From the NCBI RefSeq assembly GCF_015354055.1, contig NZ_JACHTM010000002.1:62001-126000 (forward strand): a stretch of 64,000 nucleotides of DNA, given 5' to 3'. A program made the translations under genes and the position numbers. The DNA comes from Thermaurantiacus tibetensis. Lineage in GTDB: Bacteria; Pseudomonadota; Alphaproteobacteria; Sphingomonadales; Sphingomonadaceae. How positions within the stretch are numbered: position 1 is the first letter of the stretch; each line of letters opens with the position of its first letter. The notes under the pieces were generated by a model, which was not told the DNA's origin, ran no database searches, and saw only the letters and a list, made by a program, of their open reading frames with translations. Shown here in pieces: positions 33,970 through 43,661 of this stretch.

Positions 33970-36276
33970 TCAGCGTCCCTCCTCCCATGCGTCAAGCCCC
34001 CCTTCGATCCGGTCGAGGAGCGGCCCGGCGGACCCCAGCCGGGCGCGCTCGGCGGCGACGATGGCACGGAACAGCCGCGCCTTCCAGCCATCGGCCGCAG
34101 CCCTTGCCGGGTGGTCGCCGGGCACGGCCGAGAGCAGGATGTCGACGAGCCGCTCGGCCGCATTGAGCCGGCCCCAGAGATAGTCGTTCTCGCGCCAGGC
34201 GCGGCTGAAGAAGGCGCCGAAGGCGTTGAGCCGCCAGCCCATGAGCTCGGGTGCGACGCCGCGGGCCGAAAGCAGCGCCATGTCGTCGGGCGAGATGCGG
34301 TCCACCTTGATGGCATCGAGGCTGTCCGGGTTGCCGTCGCCAAGCAGCGGCAGGAGCACGCTGTCGTAGAAGGGGTAGCCGAGCCAGTCCCGCACCACCG
34401 CGCGCCGCACGGGGCCGGGAAGGCCGGGGGCAGCGAGCGCCTGGAGGAGGGCGGAGTCGGCCGCGCGGTCGAGGGCCTCGAGCGCGAGATCGGCGGCAAG
34501 CCCCTCGAGCGCGGGCGCGGCCGCGGCGAAGTCCCCGGCCAGGAGCGCGCGGGCGGCGGCGCGGGTGCCGTCTGACAGGCGCGCAGCGGCGGCGGGCGCG
34601 GCATAGGTGGCGTCAGCTGCATAGGCCGCGGCCTTCAGCGCCTCGAGCGCGCGGCGGCTCGTCTCGTCGTGGGCCGCCTCGATGTGGGCGTTGAGCCGCC
34701 GGACGAGGAAGCGCAGCTTGCGCACCCGGTAGCCGAGGTCGAGCCGGTCCGGGTCCACGAGCGTGCCGCCGCGGGCAAGCCGGTCGGCGAGGTCACCGGG
34801 TGCTGCGGCGCCGGGCGCTGCGGTTGCGAGAAGGGCGGCGGCGTCGGCCAGCACCAGGGTGCGGCGCAGACCCCGGTAGGCGGCATGGGCGTAGCCCGCC
34901 TCCCTGGCGGCAAGCCGGGCAACGTGGCCACGCGCCCGGGCAAGCCGGGCAGGCGTCAGCGGCAGCAGCAGGAAGCGCGGGCCGACCGCCCGTGCGACAG
35001 CCGCCTCGACGTCGGGGGTCATGTCGTCGATGACCGCGCGGGTGCGGGCCGCGGCAGCGGACATGCGGGCGATCGTCTCGAGGTTGTCGCGGATCGGCTG
35101 TTCGCGGGGGATCTGGGCGAGCGCGCGGAGCATCGCCGTCAGGAACCCGGGCGGGCGGTTGCGGCCGAGCCCGCCGCCCAGCAGGTCCACGCCCGGCTTC
35201 GGGTCGATGTAGACGAAGCGCCGGTCCACCTCGCGGTAGGCGGGCTTGGCGCGGATGGCCTCGATCGCGGGGCCGAAGGGCGCGTTGTCGAGCACGCTGC
35301 CGTCGATGAGGAGCACCTCCTCGGCCGGCCGGTCGCCCTTGAGCTGGGTTTCGGCGAGCCACGCCCGGTCAGGCCAGTCGGCGCCCGTCTCGGCTGCGCG
35401 GGCGTCCACCTCGGCCAGCGAGGCGGCCGGAAAGGCGCCGGGAAAGGAGGAGGTGGCGCGCGCGGCAAAGACGAGGCTCAAGCGGCTCGCAAGCTGGCGG
35501 GGCGGCGCGCCTCCCTCCGGCCCAACCCGTGGGGCAGCGCCGGCGACCGGCGGCGCGCGGAAGGCGAGGATGCGCCGGTGCTCGGTCTCCTCGACGACCG
35601 GGGGGGAGTGGATCGGAATGGCCGTGCGGGTGCCGAAATAGTCGGTGACGGTGACGAAGAGGTCGAAGCCGAGCGTGGCCGGCAGCAGCGCGGGGCCGCG
35701 CGACCCCGTTTCCATGGCGGCGAAGGCCTCGTCGAGCATGGCCACCACGCGCGGGCCCGAAAACGGCGGCTTGAACCAGCGGCTCCGCACGAACCGGCCG
35801 AGCTTCTCGGCCACCTCCCGGCCCGTCCGGTCGGAGCGGAGGGTGGCGAGCGTCTCCGAGCGCTTCCGCGCGTACCAGGCGACCGGCTCCTTGTAGAAGG
35901 CAACGAAGCGGCTGCCGGGCCGCGCGTCGGGGTCGAGCAGGCGGTCGATGTCGGCCCCGTCGAGCCACATGTCGGTGACGGGGTCGAGGTCGAGCCCCTG
36001 GACGATGGCGGCGCCGAGGAGGATGCCGTTGATCCCCCCTGCGCTCGCGCCGGCGATCACGTCCACCACGACGCGCAGGTCGACGGCGGTGCCGAGCGCG
36101 TCGAGGAGTGCGCGCCAGACCGGCTCGCTGTCGCCGGCGGCAAGGCTTCGGCCCGCCTGACGCGCTTCGCTCGCCCGGAGCAGCTTCCAGAGCTCGCGGG
36201 TGACGCCGTGCATGTAGATGACGAGACTGATCCCGCCGTAGCAGACGAGGGCGAGGCGGAGCTCCTTCTCGCGCAT
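33970..36276 (-). CDS. patatin-like phospholipase with C-terminal DUF3376-type region
   Basis: 768 residues. The N-terminal patatin domain has LVCYGGISLVIYMHGVTRELWKL and the nucleophile elbow GASAGGING. The second dyad residue is in LLIDGSVLDNAPFGPAIEAI (DGS/DG). A helical region of about 350 residues follows and ends YDSVLLPLLGDGNPDSL and NDYLWGRLNAAERLVD, the layout of the patatin-related proteins found in sphingomonads and actinobacteria. It is a likely lipid acyl hydrolase; no signal peptide is seen. The downstream serine hydrolase on the same strand may be cotranscribed. Confidence 0.88.
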   Translation of the reverse strand: MREKELRLALVCYGGISLVIYMHGVTRELWKLLRASEARQAGRSLAAGDSEPVWRALLDALGTAVDLRVVVDVIAGASAGGINGILLGAAIVQGLDLDPVTDMWLDGADIDRLLDPDARPGSRFVAFYKEPVAWYARKRSETLATLRSDRTGREVAEKLGRFVRSRWFKPPFSGPRVVAMLDEAFAAMETGSRGPALLPATLGFDLFVTVTDYFGTRTAIPIHSPPVVEETEHRRILAFRAPPVAGAAPRVGPEGGAPPRQLASRLSLVFAARATSSFPGAFPAASLAEVDARAAETGADWPDRAWLAETQLKGDRPAEEVLLIDGSVLDNAPFGPAIEAIRAKPAYREVDRRFVYIDPKPGVDLLGGGLGRNRPPGFLTAMLRALAQIPREQPIRDNLETIARMSAAAARTRAVIDDMTPDVEAAVARAVGPRFLLLPLTPARLARARGHVARLAAREAGYAHAAYRGLRRTLVLADAAALLATAAPGAAAPGDLADRLARGGTLVDPDRLDLGYRVRKLRFLVRRLNAHIEAAHDETSRRALEALKAAAYAADATYAAPAAAARLSDGTRAAARALLAGDFAAAAPALEGLAADLALEALDRAADSALLQALAAPGLPGPVRRAVVRDWLGYPFYDSVLLPLLGDGNPDSLDAIKVDRISPDDMALLSARGVAPELMGWRLNAFGAFFSRAWRENDYLWGRLNAAERLVDILLSAVPGDHPARAAADGWKARLFRAIVAAERARLGSAGPLLDRIEGGLDAWEEGR

Positions 36277-36294: not shown

Positions 36295-37299
36295 TCAGTA
36301 GTCCTCGAGAACCTGGTCGGGCGGCCGGTGGCCGTCGGCGAACACGCGGATGTTGGTGATGACCTTTTCGCCCATCTCCTGCCGCGCCTCGAAGGTGGCC
36401 GAGCCCATGTGCGGCAGCAGCACCACGTCGGGGCGGCCGAGGAGCCCGGGGTGGATCGCCGGCTCGTGCTCGAACACGTCCAGCCCGGCGCCGGCGATGT
36501 GCCCGGCCTCGAGGGCGGCGACGAGCGCTGCCTCGTCGATGAGCGTACCGCGCGCGACGTTGATGAGGAAGGCGTGGCGCTGCATGAGCTTCAGGCGCCT
36601 GGCGTCGATGATGTGGTGCGTCTCGGGCGTCTCGGGGCAGTTGAGCGACACGATGTCGACCCGGGCCAGCATCGCGTCGAGGGTCGGCCACCAGGTGGCC
36701 TCGAGCGGGCCCTCGACCGCCTTCGGCAGCCGGTTGCGGTTGTGGTAGTGGATGGAGAGGCCGAAGGCCCGCGCGCGCGCCGCCACCGCCTGGCCGATCC
36801 GCCCCATGCCGACGATGCCGAGCCGCTTGCCGGTGATGCGGTGGCCGAGCATGCCGGTCGGCGACCAGCCGGTCCAGCTGCCGTCGCGGATGATCCGCTC
36901 GCCCTCGGCAATCCGCCGCGGCACGGCAAGGATGAGCGCCATCACGAGGTCGGCGGTGTCGTCGGTGAGGACGCCCGGCGTGTTGGTGACGGTGATGCCC
37001 CGGGCGCGGGCGGCTGCGAGGTCGATGTGGTCCACCCCCACGCCGAAGTTGGCGATGAGCTTCAGCTGCGGTCCGGCTGCGGCGATGAGCCCGGCGTCGA
37101 TCGTGTCGGTGACGGTGGGGGCGAGCACCTCCGCCTCGGCGACGGCAGCAAGAAGCTCCTCGCGCGTCATCGGGTGGTCGTCGAGGTTCAGCGTCACGTC
37201 GAAGAGTTCGGCCATGCGCGTCTCGACCGCCTGCGGCAGCCGCCTCGTCACGATCACCCGCGGCTTGTGGTCGAACTTCGTGAAGCGCGGGGCAGCCAT
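36295..37299 (-). CDS. D-2-hydroxyacid dehydrogenase, glyoxylate/hydroxypyruvate reductase-like
   Basis: 334 residues. Seen: ANFGVGVDHIDLAAARARGI, the Rossmann loop GIVGMGRIGQAVAARARAFG, SLNCPETPETHHIID, and the catalytic triad: Arg in NVARGTLIDE, Glu in FEHEPAIH, His in LLPHMGSAT. The family reduces glyoxylate or hydroxypyruvate with NAD(P)H. The substrate is inferred only. It ends 18 bp before the patatin start, on the same strand. Confidence 0.9.
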   Translation of the reverse strand: MAAPRFTKFDHKPRVIVTRRLPQAVETRMAELFDVTLNLDDHPMTREELLAAVAEAEVLAPTVTDTIDAGLIAAAGPQLKLIANFGVGVDHIDLAAARARGITVTNTPGVLTDDTADLVMALILAVPRRIAEGERIIRDGSWTGWSPTGMLGHRITGKRLGIVGMGRIGQAVAARARAFGLSIHYHNRNRLPKAVEGPLEATWWPTLDAMLARVDIVSLNCPETPETHHIIDARRLKLMQRHAFLINVARGTLIDEAALVAALEAGHIAGAGLDVFEHEPAIHPGLLGRPDVVLLPHMGSATFEARQEMGEKVITNIRVFADGHRPPDQVLEDY

Positions 37300-37376: not shown

Positions 37377-37958
37377 ATGCGGGTCATTCTCGCTCTCTTC
37401 CTCGCCCTCGCGCCCGGGCTTGCCGGTGCCAGGGCGCAGCCGGCGGGGGTGCAGCCGGGGGGCGCCGCAGGCGCGCCGGCGGGAGGCGCGGACCCGGCGA
37501 AGATGAGCCCCGATGCGCGCCGGAACCTCTCCGGCCTGCCGGTGCCGCGCTTCATGTCGCTCCGGGCCACGCGCGCCCACCTGCGCGCTGGCCCCGGCAC
37601 CGCCTACCCGGCGCGCTGGACGCTCCTGCGCCCCGACGGCCGGCCAGGCGTCCCGCTCGAGGTCATCGCCGAGTGGAACATCTGGCGGCAGGTGCGCGAT
37701 GCCGAGGGCGAGACCGGCTGGGTCGACCGGGCGATGCTGTCGACCGAGCGGACCTTCCTCGTCACTGGCGAAACGCGCACGCTCCATGCCCGGCCCGACC
37801 TCGCCGCGCCACCGGTGTGGCGGGCCGCGCCCGGCGTGGTCGGCCGGATCGTGACCTGCGCCGAGCGCTGGTGCCGGATCGAGGTGGAGGGGCGGTCGGG
37901 GTGGATCCTGCGCGAGCAGGGGTTCGGAACCTACGCCGGCGAGGCGGTCGGCGGGTGA
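37377..37958 (+). CDS. secreted SH3-like domain protein
   Basis: 193 residues. The signal peptide is VILALFLALAPGLAGARAQ. Two bacterial SH3-like (SH3_4) units follow. The first has SLRATRAHLRAGPGTAYPARW and WRQVRDAEGETGWVDRAML; the second has RTLHARPDLAAPPVWRAAPGVVGRIV and CRIEVEGRSGWILREQ. Such domains usually bind cell-wall material in the periplasm. GTG 37368 is an alternative start. The stop overlaps the next gene's start (GTGA). Confidence 0.82.
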   Translation: MRVILALFLALAPGLAGARAQPAGVQPGGAAGAPAGGADPAKMSPDARRNLSGLPVPRFMSLRATRAHLRAGPGTAYPARWTLLRPDGRPGVPLEVIAEWNIWRQVRDAEGETGWVDRAMLSTERTFLVTGETRTLHARPDLAAPPVWRAAPGVVGRIVTCAERWCRIEVEGRSGWILREQGFGTYAGEAVGG

Positions 37959-38488
37959 GCCGGCTCGCCTGGGCGCTCGCCGCCACCGGCTGGGCCATGG
38001 CCGCGGCGGCGCTCGCGGCCGCCGGCCGGGCGCGGCGCACGGCAGAGACCGACCCGCTCACCGGGCTTCCCAACCGGCGCGGACTCGCCCGGGCGTGGCA
38101 GCGGGCGCGAGGGGACGCCTCGCTCCACTTCCTCGACCTTTCGGGCTTCCGGGCGGTCAACGGGGCACACGGGCACGCGGTCGGAGACCGGGTGCTTGCC
38201 GAGGTGGCGCGCCGGCTTGCCGCCGCGCTCCCCGCCGGGGCCATGCTCGCCCGGCACGGCGGCGACGAGTTCGTGGTGCTTGCCCCCCCGGAAGCCGACC
38301 CGGCGCCGGCGCTCGCGGCCGCGCTTGCCGCGCCGGTGCGACTTCCCGACGGCGGTTCCGTCACGCTGGGGCTCTGGCTCGGCGCGGCGCCTGCCGGCAG
38401 CGGAAGCCTCGAGCGCGCCCTTGCCGCAGCGGTCGCCGACATGCGTCGCCGCCGGCTGGCCGCTTCAGCACCCGTTCAAGCCGCCTGA
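37955..38488 (+). CDS. small membrane-anchored GGDEF diguanylate cyclase
   Basis: 177 residues. One membrane helix (about residues 4-27) is followed directly by a GGDEF domain: DPLTGLPNRRGL, LDLSGFRAVNGAHGHAVGD (metal Asp and guanine-binding Asn/Asp kept, second Asp of DxD replaced by Ser), and an intact RHGGDEFVV. No RxxD inhibitory site precedes GGDEF, and the usual DxALYxAK end is eroded. It is probably active in making c-di-GMP, without product inhibition. GTG start inside the SH3 gene's stop, so the two are coupled; a cell-wall sensor controlling c-di-GMP is a reasonable guess. Confidence 0.8.
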   Translation: MSRLAWALAATGWAMAAAALAAAGRARRTAETDPLTGLPNRRGLARAWQRARGDASLHFLDLSGFRAVNGAHGHAVGDRVLAEVARRLAAALPAGAMLARHGGDEFVVLAPPEADPAPALAAALAAPVRLPDGGSVTLGLWLGAAPAGSGSLERALAAAVADMRRRRLAASAPVQAA

Positions 38489-38502: not shown

Positions 38503-39516
38503 ATGTCTCGCCAGGCTCTCGCCGCGCTTGTGCTTGGCACGCTCCTCGCGGTTCCCGCCGCGGCGACCGGCCCGTGGGACCACGCTGACCGCTGGGGGGC
38601 GGGCGGCTGGCAGAACGGCCGGGTCTACCCCTCCGCGGCGGACTGGTGGGGCCGGCCGGCACCTGCCCTCTCCGCCTTCATGGCCCCTCTTGCCGGCTAC
38701 GGCCGCTGGGTGGCGCACCCCGGCCTCGGCCGGGTGTGGCTGCCGCGCGTGGGCCACGGCTGGCAGCCCTACCGCTTCGGTCACTGGATCCGTCATGCGC
38801 GCTGGGGCTGGACCTGGCAGGCCGACGAGCCGTTCGGCTGGGTCGTCTTCCACTACGGCCGCTGGGGCTTCGACCCGCGGCTCGGCTGGTTCTGGGTGCC
38901 GGGCACTGCGTTCGCGCCGCACTGGGCGGATGTCCGCTGGTCAGCCCGCTGGCACGCCTGGGCGCCGCTGCCGCCGCCGGGCTGGGCCGGCGGGGGGAGC
39001 TGGACCTGGGGGCCGCGCGGCTGGGACTTCGGCTACCCCGGCTGGGTCCACGCCCCGCGCGGGGCCGCCTTTCGGCCCGGCTGGCAGCCGGCGCCCCGCC
39101 CGCCCCGGGCCGCATTCGAGCGGATGACGCCCAACGCGCCGCTGCCGGTGGCGGCCACGCCTCCGGCCGCCCTCCTGCCGGACCGCGCCCCCGCCTGGTC
39201 CGACTCCGCGCCCGCGCGGGAACCGGCACGCCTGCAGGGCGGCCGCGAGGGCTGGGCCCGTCCCGTGCCCCCGGCGCGCGTCACGAACGGCTGGCCCGAG
39301 GCCGGCGGGATCGCCGATACCGAAGCACCGAACCGCCCCGGGCTGGCGACCCCGCAGCCGCTGCCAGCCCCCGCCCCGTCCGCGGCGCCCCCCGTGGCCG
39401 CGCCCGCCCCGGGCTGGGCCGCGCGGCCGCCGGCCGCGCGCACACCGGAGATGTACCGGCCCTCTCCCGGGCTGCGCGGCGGCTTCGAGGAGGGAGCGGG
39501 CGCGAACGAACCCTGA
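38503..39516 (+). CDS. Trp-rich secreted DUF6600-type protein
   Basis: 337 residues. It has a signal peptide (ALAALVLGTLLAVPAAA), then about 160 residues packed with Trp and aromatic repeats: GYGRWVAHPGLGRVWLPRV, GWQPYRFGHWI, GWTWQADEPFGWVVFHYGRWGFD, GWFWVPG. This is the DUF6600 / YXWGxW-like pattern. The C-terminal 170 residues are Pro/Ala-rich and low in complexity. The function of the family is unknown; the form suggests an envelope or matrix protein. ATG 38503 lies 14 bp after the GGDEF gene. Confidence 0.8.
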   Translation: MSRQALAALVLGTLLAVPAAATGPWDHADRWGAGGWQNGRVYPSAADWWGRPAPALSAFMAPLAGYGRWVAHPGLGRVWLPRVGHGWQPYRFGHWIRHARWGWTWQADEPFGWVVFHYGRWGFDPRLGWFWVPGTAFAPHWADVRWSARWHAWAPLPPPGWAGGGSWTWGPRGWDFGYPGWVHAPRGAAFRPGWQPAPRPPRAAFERMTPNAPLPVAATPPAALLPDRAPAWSDSAPAREPARLQGGREGWARPVPPARVTNGWPEAGGIADTEAPNRPGLATPQPLPAPAPSAAPPVAAPAPGWAARPPAARTPEMYRPSPGLRGGFEEGAGANEP

Positions 39517-39614: not shown

Positions 39615-40292
39615 ATGGGCAAGGCTTCTGGAGCGGTCGGCTGGATGCTTGGTGCCGCCATCGCGCTCGCGCACCCGGTTGAGGCCGGCGTGCACATGAT
39701 CACCTGGACTCCGTCAGGAAGCGAGACGCTCGAGGTGCGGATCGGCGGCCTCGCCCCCGGCGACCCGGTGGACGTGACGACAAGCTTCGTCTGGCAGTGG
39801 GCGAGCTACTGGTGGGAGGACCGGTTCGAAGACGGCTGGGTGCTCTGGGGCAATGACTATTTCGGCGGTGACGGCTTTGACCTGCTGCCCGGCCAGCCGG
39901 TGTGGCGAAGCCTCGTGCTCGAAACCTCCGGCTACGGCAGCGGAGTGATTCTCGGCGCGTCGCTCGGCGCTTACCTCAGCCGAAGCGCCGACGAGGCGTT
40001 GCTCACCCTGCGGTGGCGCAGCCGCGCGCGCGATGTCTGCGACTCCATCCCCGAGCGGCGGCGCGTGAGCTTCGCCACCTGCGGCGCCACCTTCTGGCCC
40101 GGGCCGGAGGAGCTCTGGAGTCAGATCGACATCATGACGGGAAGTTCGCCTTCGTTCGTCGAGGTGCGGACCCTTCCGTGGACGGGCCCGGCACTGCCCG
40201 AGCCGGCGACCTGGGCGATGCTGGTGGCGGGCTTCGGCCTGGTGGGCGGGGTGTTGCGGCGCCCGAGGCGGAGGACGGCTGCCGTCGCCTGA
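39615..40292 (+). CDS. PEP-CTERM sorting domain protein
   Basis: 225 residues. The N-terminal hydrophobic segment (about residues 8-24) serves as signal peptide. The body is beta-rich and aromatic (TTSFVWQWASYWWEDRF) with two Cys that could pair, and no enzyme motif. The C-terminus is the sorting tag PEPATWAM, then a hydrophobic stretch, then RRPRRR. Predicted exosortase (XrtA) substrate. The tag is almost identical to that of the protein at 3802 although the bodies differ. A circularly permuted ATP-grasp gene follows 40 bp later. Confidence 0.88.
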   Translation: MGKASGAVGWMLGAAIALAHPVEAGVHMITWTPSGSETLEVRIGGLAPGDPVDVTTSFVWQWASYWWEDRFEDGWVLWGNDYFGGDGFDLLPGQPVWRSLVLETSGYGSGVILGASLGAYLSRSADEALLTLRWRSRARDVCDSIPERRRVSFATCGATFWPGPEELWSQIDIMTGSSPSFVEVRTLPWTGPALPEPATWAMLVAGFGLVGGVLRRPRRRTAAVA

Positions 40293-40332: not shown

Positions 40333-41811
40333 GTGGGTGCGGCGTTCGACGAGATGTTCGGCCACGGGGGCTATCCGGAGCGGGTGGACCCGCAGGCGGT
40401 TCGGCCCGCCTACGCCCAGGTGGCCGCCTGGCTCGCTGCCTCGAGCCAGGAGCTGCTCGAGACCCGCCGCCGCCAGGCCGAGCTCTTCTTCCGCCGGATC
40501 GGCATCACCTTTGCCGTCTACGGCGACCCGGATGCCGACGAGCGGCTGATCCCCTTCGACATCATTCCCCGGATCATCTCGGCGGAAGAGTGGGCGGTCG
40601 TCGAGGAGGGGCTGAAGCAGCGGGTCGCGGCGCTCAATGCCTTCTGCGCCGACGTCTACGGCGCCCGCGAGATCCTGCGGGCTGGCGTGTTGCCCGAGGA
40701 CCTGGTGTTCGCGAACCCGCAGTTCTGTCTCCACCAGCTCGGCTTCCGCCCGGCCGGCGGCGTCTGGGTGCACATTGCGGGCATCGACCTCGTCCGCACC
40801 GGCCCGGGCGAGTTCCTCGTCCTCGAGGACAATGCGCGCACCCCCTCGGGCGTCTCCTACATGCTCGAGAACCGCGAGGTGATGCTGCGGCTCGTGCCCG
40901 AGCTCATCACCGGCGAGACGGACGAGGGCGGCGTGCGCCCCGTCGAGACCTACCCCGAGCAGCTCTATGCCACGCTCCGCTCGGTCGCCCCGCCCGGGTG
41001 CCGCGGGGAGCCGACGGTGGCGCTCCTGACCCCCGGCCTCCACAACAGCGCGTACTACGAGCACAGCTTCCTCGCCGACAAGATGGGGGTGGAGCTGGTC
41101 GAGGGTTCCGACCTCTTCGTCCACGATGATGTGCTCTACATGCGCACGACCGCCGGCCCGGCCCGCGTGGACGTGCTCTACCGGCGGGTGGACGACGCCT
41201 TCCTCGACCCGCTGGTCTTCCGGCCCGACTCGCTTCTCGGCATCCCCGGCCTGGTCCGCGCCTGCCACGCCGGCAACCTCACCCTCGCCAACGCGATCGG
41301 TACCGGCATCGCCGACGACAAGGCGATCTACAGCTACATGCCCGAGATCGTCCGCTTCTACACCGGCCGTGATCCCATCCTCCCCAACGTGCCGACCTGG
41401 CGCTGCCGGGAGCCCGAGGCACTGGCCGAGGTGCTCGACCGCCTGCCCGAGCTCGTCGTGAAGGAAGTGGACGGCTCGGGCGGCTACGGCATGCTGGTCG
41501 GCCCGCACGCGACTGCCGCCGAGGTGGAGGCCTTCCGCGCGAAGCTTCGGGCCGATCCGGCGAAGTTCATCGCCCAGCCGACGCTTGCCCTCTCCACCTG
41601 CCCGACGCTGACCGATGCCGGCATCGCGCCGCGCCATGTCGATCTGCGCCCCTTCATCCTGACTGGCGCGCACGGCGTTACCGTGATCCCGGGCGGGCTC
41701 ACGCGGGTCGCCATGCGGGAAGGCTCGCTCGTCGTGAACTCGAGCCAGGGCGGCGGCACCAAGGACACCTGGGTGCTCGGGCCCGGCACCGATGCCCGGG
41801 CTTCCTCCTGA
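40333..41811 (+). CDS. circularly permuted ATP-grasp protein
   Basis: 492 residues, type 2 circularly permuted ATP-grasp (DUF404/407-like). Seen: FDIIPRIISAEEWAVVEEGLKQRV, FLVLEDNARTPSGVSYMLENREVM (metal/ATP residues), ALLTPGLHNSAYYEHSFLADKMG, LVEGSDLFVHDDVLYM, and VVKEVDGSGGYGMLVGP. Such enzymes are predicted amide-bond ligases. First gene of an operon with the alpha-E, transglutaminase and Anbu genes, described by comparative genomics as a predicted peptide-tagging or peptide-synthesis system. GTG start; the stop and next ATG share one base (TGATG). Confidence 0.93.
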   Translation: MGAAFDEMFGHGGYPERVDPQAVRPAYAQVAAWLAASSQELLETRRRQAELFFRRIGITFAVYGDPDADERLIPFDIIPRIISAEEWAVVEEGLKQRVAALNAFCADVYGAREILRAGVLPEDLVFANPQFCLHQLGFRPAGGVWVHIAGIDLVRTGPGEFLVLEDNARTPSGVSYMLENREVMLRLVPELITGETDEGGVRPVETYPEQLYATLRSVAPPGCRGEPTVALLTPGLHNSAYYEHSFLADKMGVELVEGSDLFVHDDVLYMRTTAGPARVDVLYRRVDDAFLDPLVFRPDSLLGIPGLVRACHAGNLTLANAIGTGIADDKAIYSYMPEIVRFYTGRDPILPNVPTWRCREPEALAEVLDRLPELVVKEVDGSGGYGMLVGPHATAAEVEAFRAKLRADPAKFIAQPTLALSTCPTLTDAGIAPRHVDLRPFILTGAHGVTVIPGGLTRVAMREGSLVVNSSQGGGTKDTWVLGPGTDARASS

Positions 41812-42752
41812 TGCTCTCGCGCAACGCCGCCAACCTCTACTGGCTCGGCCGTTACGTCGAGCGCGCGGACTATCTGTGCCGGCTGCTCGATGCCACCATC
41901 CGCCTGGCAGCCCTTCCGGCCACCCACGGCGGCGCCGGCACGGCGTGGGAGGCGGCGATCCTGTCGGCAAGCGCCGCCGAGGCCTTCGCATCCACCGGGC
42001 GGCGGATGACCGACACCGAGGTCTCCCGCTTCCTCGCCGTCGACCCGGCGAACCCGAGCTCCATCCGCTGCTGCCTCGAGCGCGCCCGCACCAACGCCCG
42101 TGCGCTGCGGACTGCGCTCACCGCCGAGACCTGGGAGGCCATCAACGCCGCCTGGCTCGAGGTGCAGCGGTTCGGCACGAGCGTGGGCGAGACCCTGACG
42201 CTCATGCGCCTCGTCGAGACAGTGAAGCAGTCCCTCCTCGCCTTCGACGGTGCCGCCCACCGCAACCAGCTGCGGGAGCCCACCTACTGGTTCATGCGGC
42301 TCGGCACCTCGATCGAGCGGGCCGACAACACCGCCCGCCTGCTCGACCAGAAGTATCACATTCTCCTGCCGCGAACCGAGCCCGTCGGCGGCAGCCTCGA
42401 CTACTTCCAGTGGACCACCATCCTGCGCACCGTCTCGGCGCTCACCGCCTACCGCTGGGTCTACCGCGATGCGGTCAAGCCCTGGCTCGTGGCCGACCTT
42501 CTCATCCTCCGGAAGGCCATGCCACGCTCGCTCGCCGCCTGCTACGAGGACGCGGTCTTCTACCTCGACCGGCTCGCGCTCGACCGCGGCCGGCAGGGCC
42601 CCGCCAACCGGCTCGCGGTTGCCGGGCTGAAGCGGCTGGAGGCGGAGACGATCGACACGCTCTTCCAGCGCGGACTCCACGAGTTCCTCCTCCAGTTCAT
42701 CGCGGACAACAATGCGCTGGGCGATGCGATCGCCGAACAGCATCTGTTCTAG
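41811..42752 (+). CDS. alpha-E domain protein
   Basis: 313 residues, all helical. It begins LSRNAANLYWLGRYVERADYLCRLLDA and has TNARALRTALTAETWEAINAAWLE, TYWFMRLGTSIERADNTARLLDQKYH and WTTILRTVSALTAYRW, the signature of the alpha-E (DUF403) family. The conserved Glu/Arg pairs are thought to form an active or binding site, but no reaction is established. Always found with the permuted ATP-grasp protein, as here. Confidence 0.92.
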   Translation: MLSRNAANLYWLGRYVERADYLCRLLDATIRLAALPATHGGAGTAWEAAILSASAAEAFASTGRRMTDTEVSRFLAVDPANPSSIRCCLERARTNARALRTALTAETWEAINAAWLEVQRFGTSVGETLTLMRLVETVKQSLLAFDGAAHRNQLREPTYWFMRLGTSIERADNTARLLDQKYHILLPRTEPVGGSLDYFQWTTILRTVSALTAYRWVYRDAVKPWLVADLLILRKAMPRSLAACYEDAVFYLDRLALDRGRQGPANRLAVAGLKRLEAETIDTLFQRGLHEFLLQFIADNNALGDAIAEQHLF

Positions 42753-42791
42753 CCTCTGGTGGCGGGCGGCGCGGACGGGCATGGGGCGGCC

Positions 42792-43661
42792 GTGCGACTC
42801 CTGATCGACCACCGCACCGTCTACCGCTACGAGGGGCCGGCCTCGGCCATCGTCCAGGTGCTGCGGCTGACCCCGCGGCCGGGCGACTCCCAGGCGATCC
42901 TGCGCTGGCGGGTGGACGTCGAGGCAGACGGCGCGATCAAGCCCTTCACCGACGCCCACGGCAACCTCGCGCACATGTTCTACGCCGATGCGCCGCTCGC
43001 CGAGCTCGCCATCCACGTCGAGGGCGAGGTGCTGACGACCGACCGCGCCGGAATCGTGGGCGCCGGCGAGGAGCTGGTTCCGCTCGGCGTCTATCTCCGC
43101 TCCACCCCGCTTACCACGCCTGACGCAGCGCTCGCTGCGTTTGCCCGCACCATCCAGCACGAGAGCCCGCTTTCGCAGGCACACATGCTCATGGAGAGCA
43201 TCCACCGGCGGATGGCCTTCGACCCCGACGTGACCCACCCGGCAACCGATGCCGCCACCGCCTTCCGGCTCGGCCGCGGGGTCTGCCAGGATCTCTCGCA
43301 GGTGATGGTCACGGCCGCGCGGCTCCTCGGAATCCCGGCGCGCTATGTTTCGGGGCACTATGCCGCCCCCGACCACCCGGAGCAGGAGGCGGCCCACGCC
43401 TGGGCCGAGCTCCACCTGCCCGGGCTTGGCTGGGTCGCGTTCGACCCCACCCATGGCATCTGCGCCGGCGAGGGCCATGTGCGGGTGGCCGTCGGCCTCG
43501 ACTCGCTCGATGCCGCTCCCGTGCGCGGCACCCGCCGCGGCGGCGGGGCCGAGCGCCTTTCCGTGCAGGTCCACGGACGCGCGGCCCCTGCGGCCCCACC
43601 TGCCGACGGCGCCGAGCCCGACCTCTTCGCCGGGCAGGAGCAGCAGGAGCAGCGGCAATGA
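42792..43661 (+). CDS. transglutaminase-like cysteine protease
   Basis: 289 residues. N-terminal beta domain with LLIDHRTVYRYEGPAS. The transglutaminase core has the catalytic Cys in GRGVCQDLSQVMVTAARLLGI, His in EAAHAWAELHLPG and Asp in FDPTHGIC. It probably cleaves or forms amide or isopeptide bonds in products of the ATP-grasp enzyme. I use GTG 42792, which gives the standard N-terminus; GTG 42759 adds 11 unrelated residues. The C-terminal tail is Gln/Ala-rich. Overlaps the Anbu gene by 4 bp. Confidence 0.9.
   Translation: MRLLIDHRTVYRYEGPASAIVQVLRLTPRPGDSQAILRWRVDVEADGAIKPFTDAHGNLAHMFYADAPLAELAIHVEGEVLTTDRAGIVGAGEELVPLGVYLRSTPLTTPDAALAAFARTIQHESPLSQAHMLMESIHRRMAFDPDVTHPATDAATAFRLGRGVCQDLSQVMVTAARLLGIPARYVSGHYAAPDHPEQEAAHAWAELHLPGLGWVAFDPTHGICAGEGHVRVAVGLDSLDAAPVRGTRRGGGAERLSVQVHGRAAPAAPPADGAEPDLFAGQEQQEQRQ

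Follow-up and report, generated by a model that had tools for sequence, protein, structure and literature searches.

The YfiBNR system of Pseudomonas aeruginosa contains YfiN (TpbB), a cyclase without product inhibition that is run by a periplasmic protein (PMC2837407, PMC3838380). YfiN carries PAS and HAMP domains (PMC3375315), and when isolated its GGDEF domain binds GTP and is inactive (PMC3838380). In the degenerate GGDEF proteins SgmT, PopA and CC3396 catalytic residues have been lost; for SgmT, loss of K442 and R446 plus a broken signature was taken as inactivity, and CC3396 binds GTP (PMC3509222, PMC7288161). These papers, and PMC12943098, which with PMC7288161 and PMC3509222 is our source for the roles of the GGDEF residues discussed below, are cited from excerpts. 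Here we describe two adjoining genes in a 64,000-nucleotide stretch of the Thermaurantiacus tibetensis genome (the window; the host genome is 2.75 Mb), where a gene for a predicted periplasmic protein with two SH3_4 domains (37377..37958, forward strand) runs directly into a gene for a one-helix GGDEF protein (37955..38488, forward strand). Our preferred account, held tentatively and at a little under an even chance, is that the GGDEF protein is a weak or non-catalytic membrane protein that binds GTP (or cyclic di-GMP, c-di-GMP), is co-expressed with the SH3 protein, and is encoded by a gene that arrived downstream of an older SH3 gene.

The pair is real and conserved. The SH3 gene is followed by the GGDEF gene, in the same order, in all five genomes of the window's genus and in five of the six genomes of a second Sphingomonadaceae genus (g116), the sixth being 81% complete. 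When 397 genomes of the family were searched with a profile, scoring eight candidates per genome, the top ten GGDEF proteins among the best matches listed came from the window's genus and g116, five from each. Further pairs may exist elsewhere in the family, because adjacency to an SH3 gene was read only in these genera and in the two genomes ranking next (L118 and L119, neither with an SH3 match). In a tree of 62 rows, from which one row truncated at a contig end was dropped, all paired SH3 proteins group in one clade with support of 100/97; in a tree of 41 rows the paired GGDEF domains likewise group in one clade, with support of 99/96. Conservation of the pair, a check proposed in the original prediction, is therefore confirmed in both genera and in both trees. 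A single origin of the pair is the simplest reading of these data, and transfer within the paired clade may have occurred, because the SH3 tree mixes the genera, placing G001 with g116 (98/92), and G001 has no firm place in the GGDEF tree. In the window a GTGA overlap (37955..37958, forward strand, read from the sequence) joins the SH3 stop codon to the GGDEF start codon, and the coordinates and frames of both open reading frames (ORFs) are as first predicted. This overlap is particular to the window, and the nine other pairs all lack GTGA; their likely GGDEF starts lie from 38 nucleotides inside the SH3 gene to 26 nucleotides past its stop, chosen by eye or as the longest ORF, with several choices uncertain. 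It is the preserved side-by-side position of the two genes in ten genomes that goes beyond chance. No description of such an SH3–GGDEF pair was found in open-licence PMC papers, and the SH3 protein in the excerpt of PMC8250860 is unrelated to it.

The SH3 gene has a wider and apparently older distribution than its partner. It is present as a single copy in 58 of the 59 genomes examined in the order, that of T. tibetensis included, and the one genome without it is 67% complete. No same-strand GGDEF gene lies behind it at any of the 53 unpaired loci of this set outside the genus (one of which ends at a contig edge); the DNA available behind the gene is at least 1455 nucleotides in 51 of these, 640 nucleotides in L067 and none in L095. 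Since the SH3 gene is order-wide and none of the 53 loci has a same-strand GGDEF gene behind it, the GGDEF gene is the later addition, and the SH3 protein serves an older role and is not by origin a GGDEF sensor. The same distribution rules out a dedicated sensor by origin, and the original proposal that the SH3 protein could be the missing sensor of the cyclase is further undercut by the window's GGDEF protein itself, which has three residues ahead of its hydrophobic stretch. A conserved neighbor is not automatically an ancestral sensor. Under our preferred account, the ancestor of the two genera would have gained a small GGDEF gene directly behind the periplasmic SH3_4 gene, and the two would have been inherited together ever since; from a message shared with the SH3 gene, the amount of GGDEF protein would follow the need for the envelope protein. 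At one unpaired locus (genome G015, L078), a GGDEF protein is encoded on the opposite strand about 1 kb behind the SH3 gene.

The SH3 gene has an ATG start and a TGA stop and encodes 193 residues, arranged as a signal-peptide-like N-terminus (judged by eye only), a linker and two SH3_4 domains. The tandem SH3_4 domains (PF06347) were matched in two stretches with an E value of 3.4e-22 and 78.4 bits against a cut-off of 24.1; SH3_3 was also matched, and no further Pfam domain was found above cut-off. The best of five AlphaFold models had a mean predicted local distance difference test (pLDDT) score of 70.4, with the other four at 40–45. In the best model the second domain scores about 90–95, residues 81–120 about 81–85, and residues 1–70 below 50. 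The closest Foldseek matches were 3npf/4r0k (putative dipeptidyl-peptidase VI), followed by endolysin 4krt and the NlpC/P60 protein 3h41, with template modeling scores of only about 0.3. Against PDB sequences the SH3 profile found weak matches only (best E value 0.0098), and NCBIfam gave no name to the protein, TIGR04211 reaching 25 bits against a cut-off of 65. The protein resembles other SH3_4 (PF06347) proteins in its two SH3_4 domains behind a signal-peptide-like start, and differs from them in that its gene occurs once per genome across the order and encodes no other domain above cut-off. We know of no tested function for SH3_4 proteins of this type.

The GGDEF protein gene has a GTG start and a TGA stop and encodes 177 residues, consisting of three residues, one hydrophobic stretch, the motif RARR and a GGDEF domain in which the active site (A-site) is kept. 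The domain was matched by Pfam (PF00990) with an E value of 1.8e-20 and 73.8 bits against a cut-off of 23.8, the best stretch covering model positions 1–93 of 161, and no sensor domain was found, with no PAS or HAMP match at E values up to 1. Among the GGDEF proteins only that of the window was modeled; its AlphaFold structure, built from five sequences, has a mean pLDDT of 91.4 and shows a helix at residues 2–30, the GGDEF core and a last helix at residues 152–171, after which there is no strand and only a low-confidence tail. These results from Pfam and AlphaFold, together with the alignment described below, agree with the initial description of a one-helix protein with no sensor domain, no RxxD inhibitory site (I-site) and a shortened C-terminus. 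A chance ORF is ruled out by the Pfam match, the conservation and the predicted fold. The single helix would anchor the protein in the inner membrane with the domain in the cytoplasm. Single-helix, sensorless GGDEF proteins pose the question of what sets their activity, and the answer here may be the adjoining gene.

The closest named relative of the GGDEF protein is YfiN/TpbB, which was its best match among named cyclases by sequence (PDB 7a7e and 4iob) and, as 7a7e, the first Foldseek match of a model that adopts the GGDEF fold; the NCBIfam DgcN/YfiN model gave 2.1e-24 and 86 bits, with a cut-off of 325. The locus also resembles YfiBNR in that a gene for a small periplasmic protein adjoins one for a membrane GGDEF protein without product inhibition. 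Control of the YfiR–YfiN kind would mean that contact of the periplasmic SH3 protein with the outward-facing tip of the GGDEF helix holds the GGDEF protein in, or frees it from, an inactive arrangement, so that the state of the cell wall sets c-di-GMP. We regard this as unlikely, although it retains an appreciable minority chance. It would be in keeping with the match to YfiN, with the joint inheritance of the two genes as one clade in each tree, and with a change in the SH3 protein, where the tryptophan of a C-terminal [LIF]WG motif is Phe in all ten paired proteins and Trp in 49 of the 53 unpaired ones (45 by pattern and four by eye with Phe before the Trp). The exceptions among the unpaired proteins are Phe in L077, Tyr in L084 and L090, and L095, which is cut; L043, the nearest unpaired protein in the tree, carries Trp. 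As a sign of recruitment this change is only suggestive, because it amounts to one event, which falls on the branch leading to the paired clade. In the window, the [GA]FG that paired proteins have in place of this motif is encoded at 37920–37928. Against YfiR-like control, the GGDEF protein has no periplasmic domain, with three residues ahead of the hydrophobic stretch and about 27 in G189 if its most upstream start is taken, and the SH3 protein gave no YfiR family match in Pfam at E values up to 1. In the excerpted papers YfiN has PAS and HAMP domains and a GGDEF domain that is inactive alone (PMC3375315, PMC3838380), and the system includes a YfiR of another family and the outer-membrane lipoprotein YfiB (PMC2837407, PMC3375315, PMC3838380), none of which was matched here. 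At most, the pair would work by analogy with a stripped YfiR–YfiN system, to whose family it does not belong. If the SH3 protein controls its partner at all, this could only be a later addition. In one form of such an addition, a single recruitment event would have made a periplasmic SH3_4 protein that senses the cell wall into a switch acting on the bare helix end of the GGDEF protein, with the Trp-to-Phe change as part of that event. This form is in our estimate distinctly improbable; if true, cell-wall state would be passed to c-di-GMP through the simplest receptor possible.

The reading of the GGDEF protein as a weak or non-catalytic nucleotide binder is based on its residue pattern, which was compared, in PleD numbering, with 31 control GGDEF domains (loci L001–L006 and L013–L037). 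The controls comprise the six other GGDEF domains of the T. tibetensis genome and, from 25 genomes of the order, one domain each that was the best match or close to it, with the paired loci excluded and no other row dropped. D327, F331, N335, H340, D344, R366 and the GGDEF signature are intact in 10/10 paired proteins, and these include the metal and guanine ligands D327, N335 and D344. D329, which is unchanged in 31/31 controls, is altered in nine of the ten paired proteins. K332 and D336 are both kept in all 31 controls and in 5/5 proteins of g116; in four of the five proteins of the window's genus K332 is replaced by Arg and in four of five D336 is altered. K442 and R446 contact the phosphates. 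At the place of K442 a Lys is found in none of the five proteins of the window's genus, in four of five in g116 and in 30 of the 31 controls, and the place of R446 is basic in one paired protein (G002) versus 27/31 controls. The GRN end, the last strand of the GGDEF domain, is missing from all ten paired proteins, whose tails after the last helix are short (up to about 16 residues) and mutually dissimilar. None of the ten has an RxxD, its place being taken by PAGA in the window protein; this absence was correctly predicted, and it is not special, as 23 of the 31 controls also lack RxxD at the same place. Because positions invariant in 31 controls, as well as the K442 place, are altered in the window's genus, cyclase activity there is in doubt, and the original label of a minimal unregulated diguanylate cyclase is not supported as given. 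The best reading for this genus is a weak or non-catalytic GTP binder. The protein would still bind the metal and the guanine of GTP, without an I-site and without the GRN end that carries R446; on the phosphate side, the copies of the window's genus also differ at other conserved residues. Its cyclase activity would be weak or absent, and co-expression, in place of a built-in sensor, would set its level. In its lost catalytic residues the protein is comparable with SgmT, PopA and CC3396, and in the missing K442 and R446 equivalents with SgmT in particular (PMC3509222, PMC7288161), but unlike these proteins it has an intact GGDEF signature and lacks RxxD.

Several observations weigh against a weak or non-catalytic binder. 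The K442 result depends on the alignment, and a gap-free reading by eye places an Arg there in G000, G002 and G003. The proteins of g116 may be active, because they retain K332 and D336 (5/5 each) and mostly K442 (4/5) and because Pfam coverage is near full, reaching positions 153–158 of 161 in the three g116 proteins scanned. Within the window's genus, the ratio of nonsynonymous to synonymous differences (pN/pS) was 0.36–0.70 for the GGDEF core, 0.42–1.05 for the C-terminal part and 0.16–0.56 for the SH3 gene (ten species pairs each), values that are rough given the high synonymous divergence and come without a control-gene comparison. They suggest that the core is kept while the C-terminal end drifts, and purifying selection on the core would fit a working enzyme equally well. 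Such an enzyme could be a constitutive, active cyclase without an I-site, its output set only by the amount made together with the SH3 protein, which we consider improbable. The metal and base residues in 10/10 proteins, the almost canonical g116 sequences and the general lack of RxxD are as this explanation would have them, whereas the altered residues in the window's genus and the loss of the GRN end from all ten proteins are not. Moreover, since the YfiN GGDEF domain without HAMP binds GTP and yields no product, according to the excerpts cited above, the helix here would have to join two domains. An explanation to which we assign a similarly small chance is that the gene formerly worked and is now being lost in the window's genus, kept by chance or linkage. 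In this genus the copies lack more of the conserved residues than in g116, and their C-terminal part approaches neutrality in some species pairs, but the ORF is open in 5/5 species with relatives 47–67% identical to the window protein, all five keep the GGDEF signature, and pN/pS of the core is below 1 in 10/10 pairs.

The c-di-GMP network of the window's genus is small. Genomes of the window's genus have 3 to 7 GGDEF matches each (the paired one included) and 1 to 5 EAL matches. No PilZ match was found in any of the five, a search that was positive in 5 of 14 control genomes, so that a deletion could give a clean readout. GGDEF and EAL proteins thus occur in five genomes without a PilZ match. 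MshEN was not found in the T. tibetensis genome, and the same search was positive in 5 of 14 control genomes.

The neighboring genes were originally taken to suggest that c-di-GMP may control envelope or matrix production at this locus, a proposal that their distribution does not favor. The next gene (38503..39516, forward strand) encodes a Trp-rich DUF6600 protein, as identified by Pfam and locus comparison; it lies behind the pair in 5/5 genomes of the window's genus and in 1/5 of g116, and no paper on DUF6600 was found in open-licence PMC. A gene for a PEPxxWA-CTERM protein is present at 39615–40292 in the window. It has no match in L097, L099 and L113, the relatives whose DNA reaches the following ATP-grasp gene (L096 and L098 end short of it), which rules it out as part of the unit. 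A scan for promoters and terminators returned none of either. Upstream, a D-isomer 2-hydroxyacid dehydrogenase gene identified by Pfam (36295..37299, reverse strand) is divergent to the SH3 gene, an arrangement found in 10/10 paired and 39/53 unpaired loci, some of which are short. A gene for a patatin-like phospholipase with DUF3376 (33970–36276) sits beside that of the dehydrogenase in each of the ten paired genomes, and the order patatin, dehydrogenase, SH3, GGDEF is identical in g116 and the window's genus. Downstream, genes for a CP_ATPgrasp_2 ATP-grasp protein, a 313-residue protein and a 300-residue protein (transglutaminase-like by eye) stand in a row at 40333–43661, and the same trio also follows in L097, L099 and L113.
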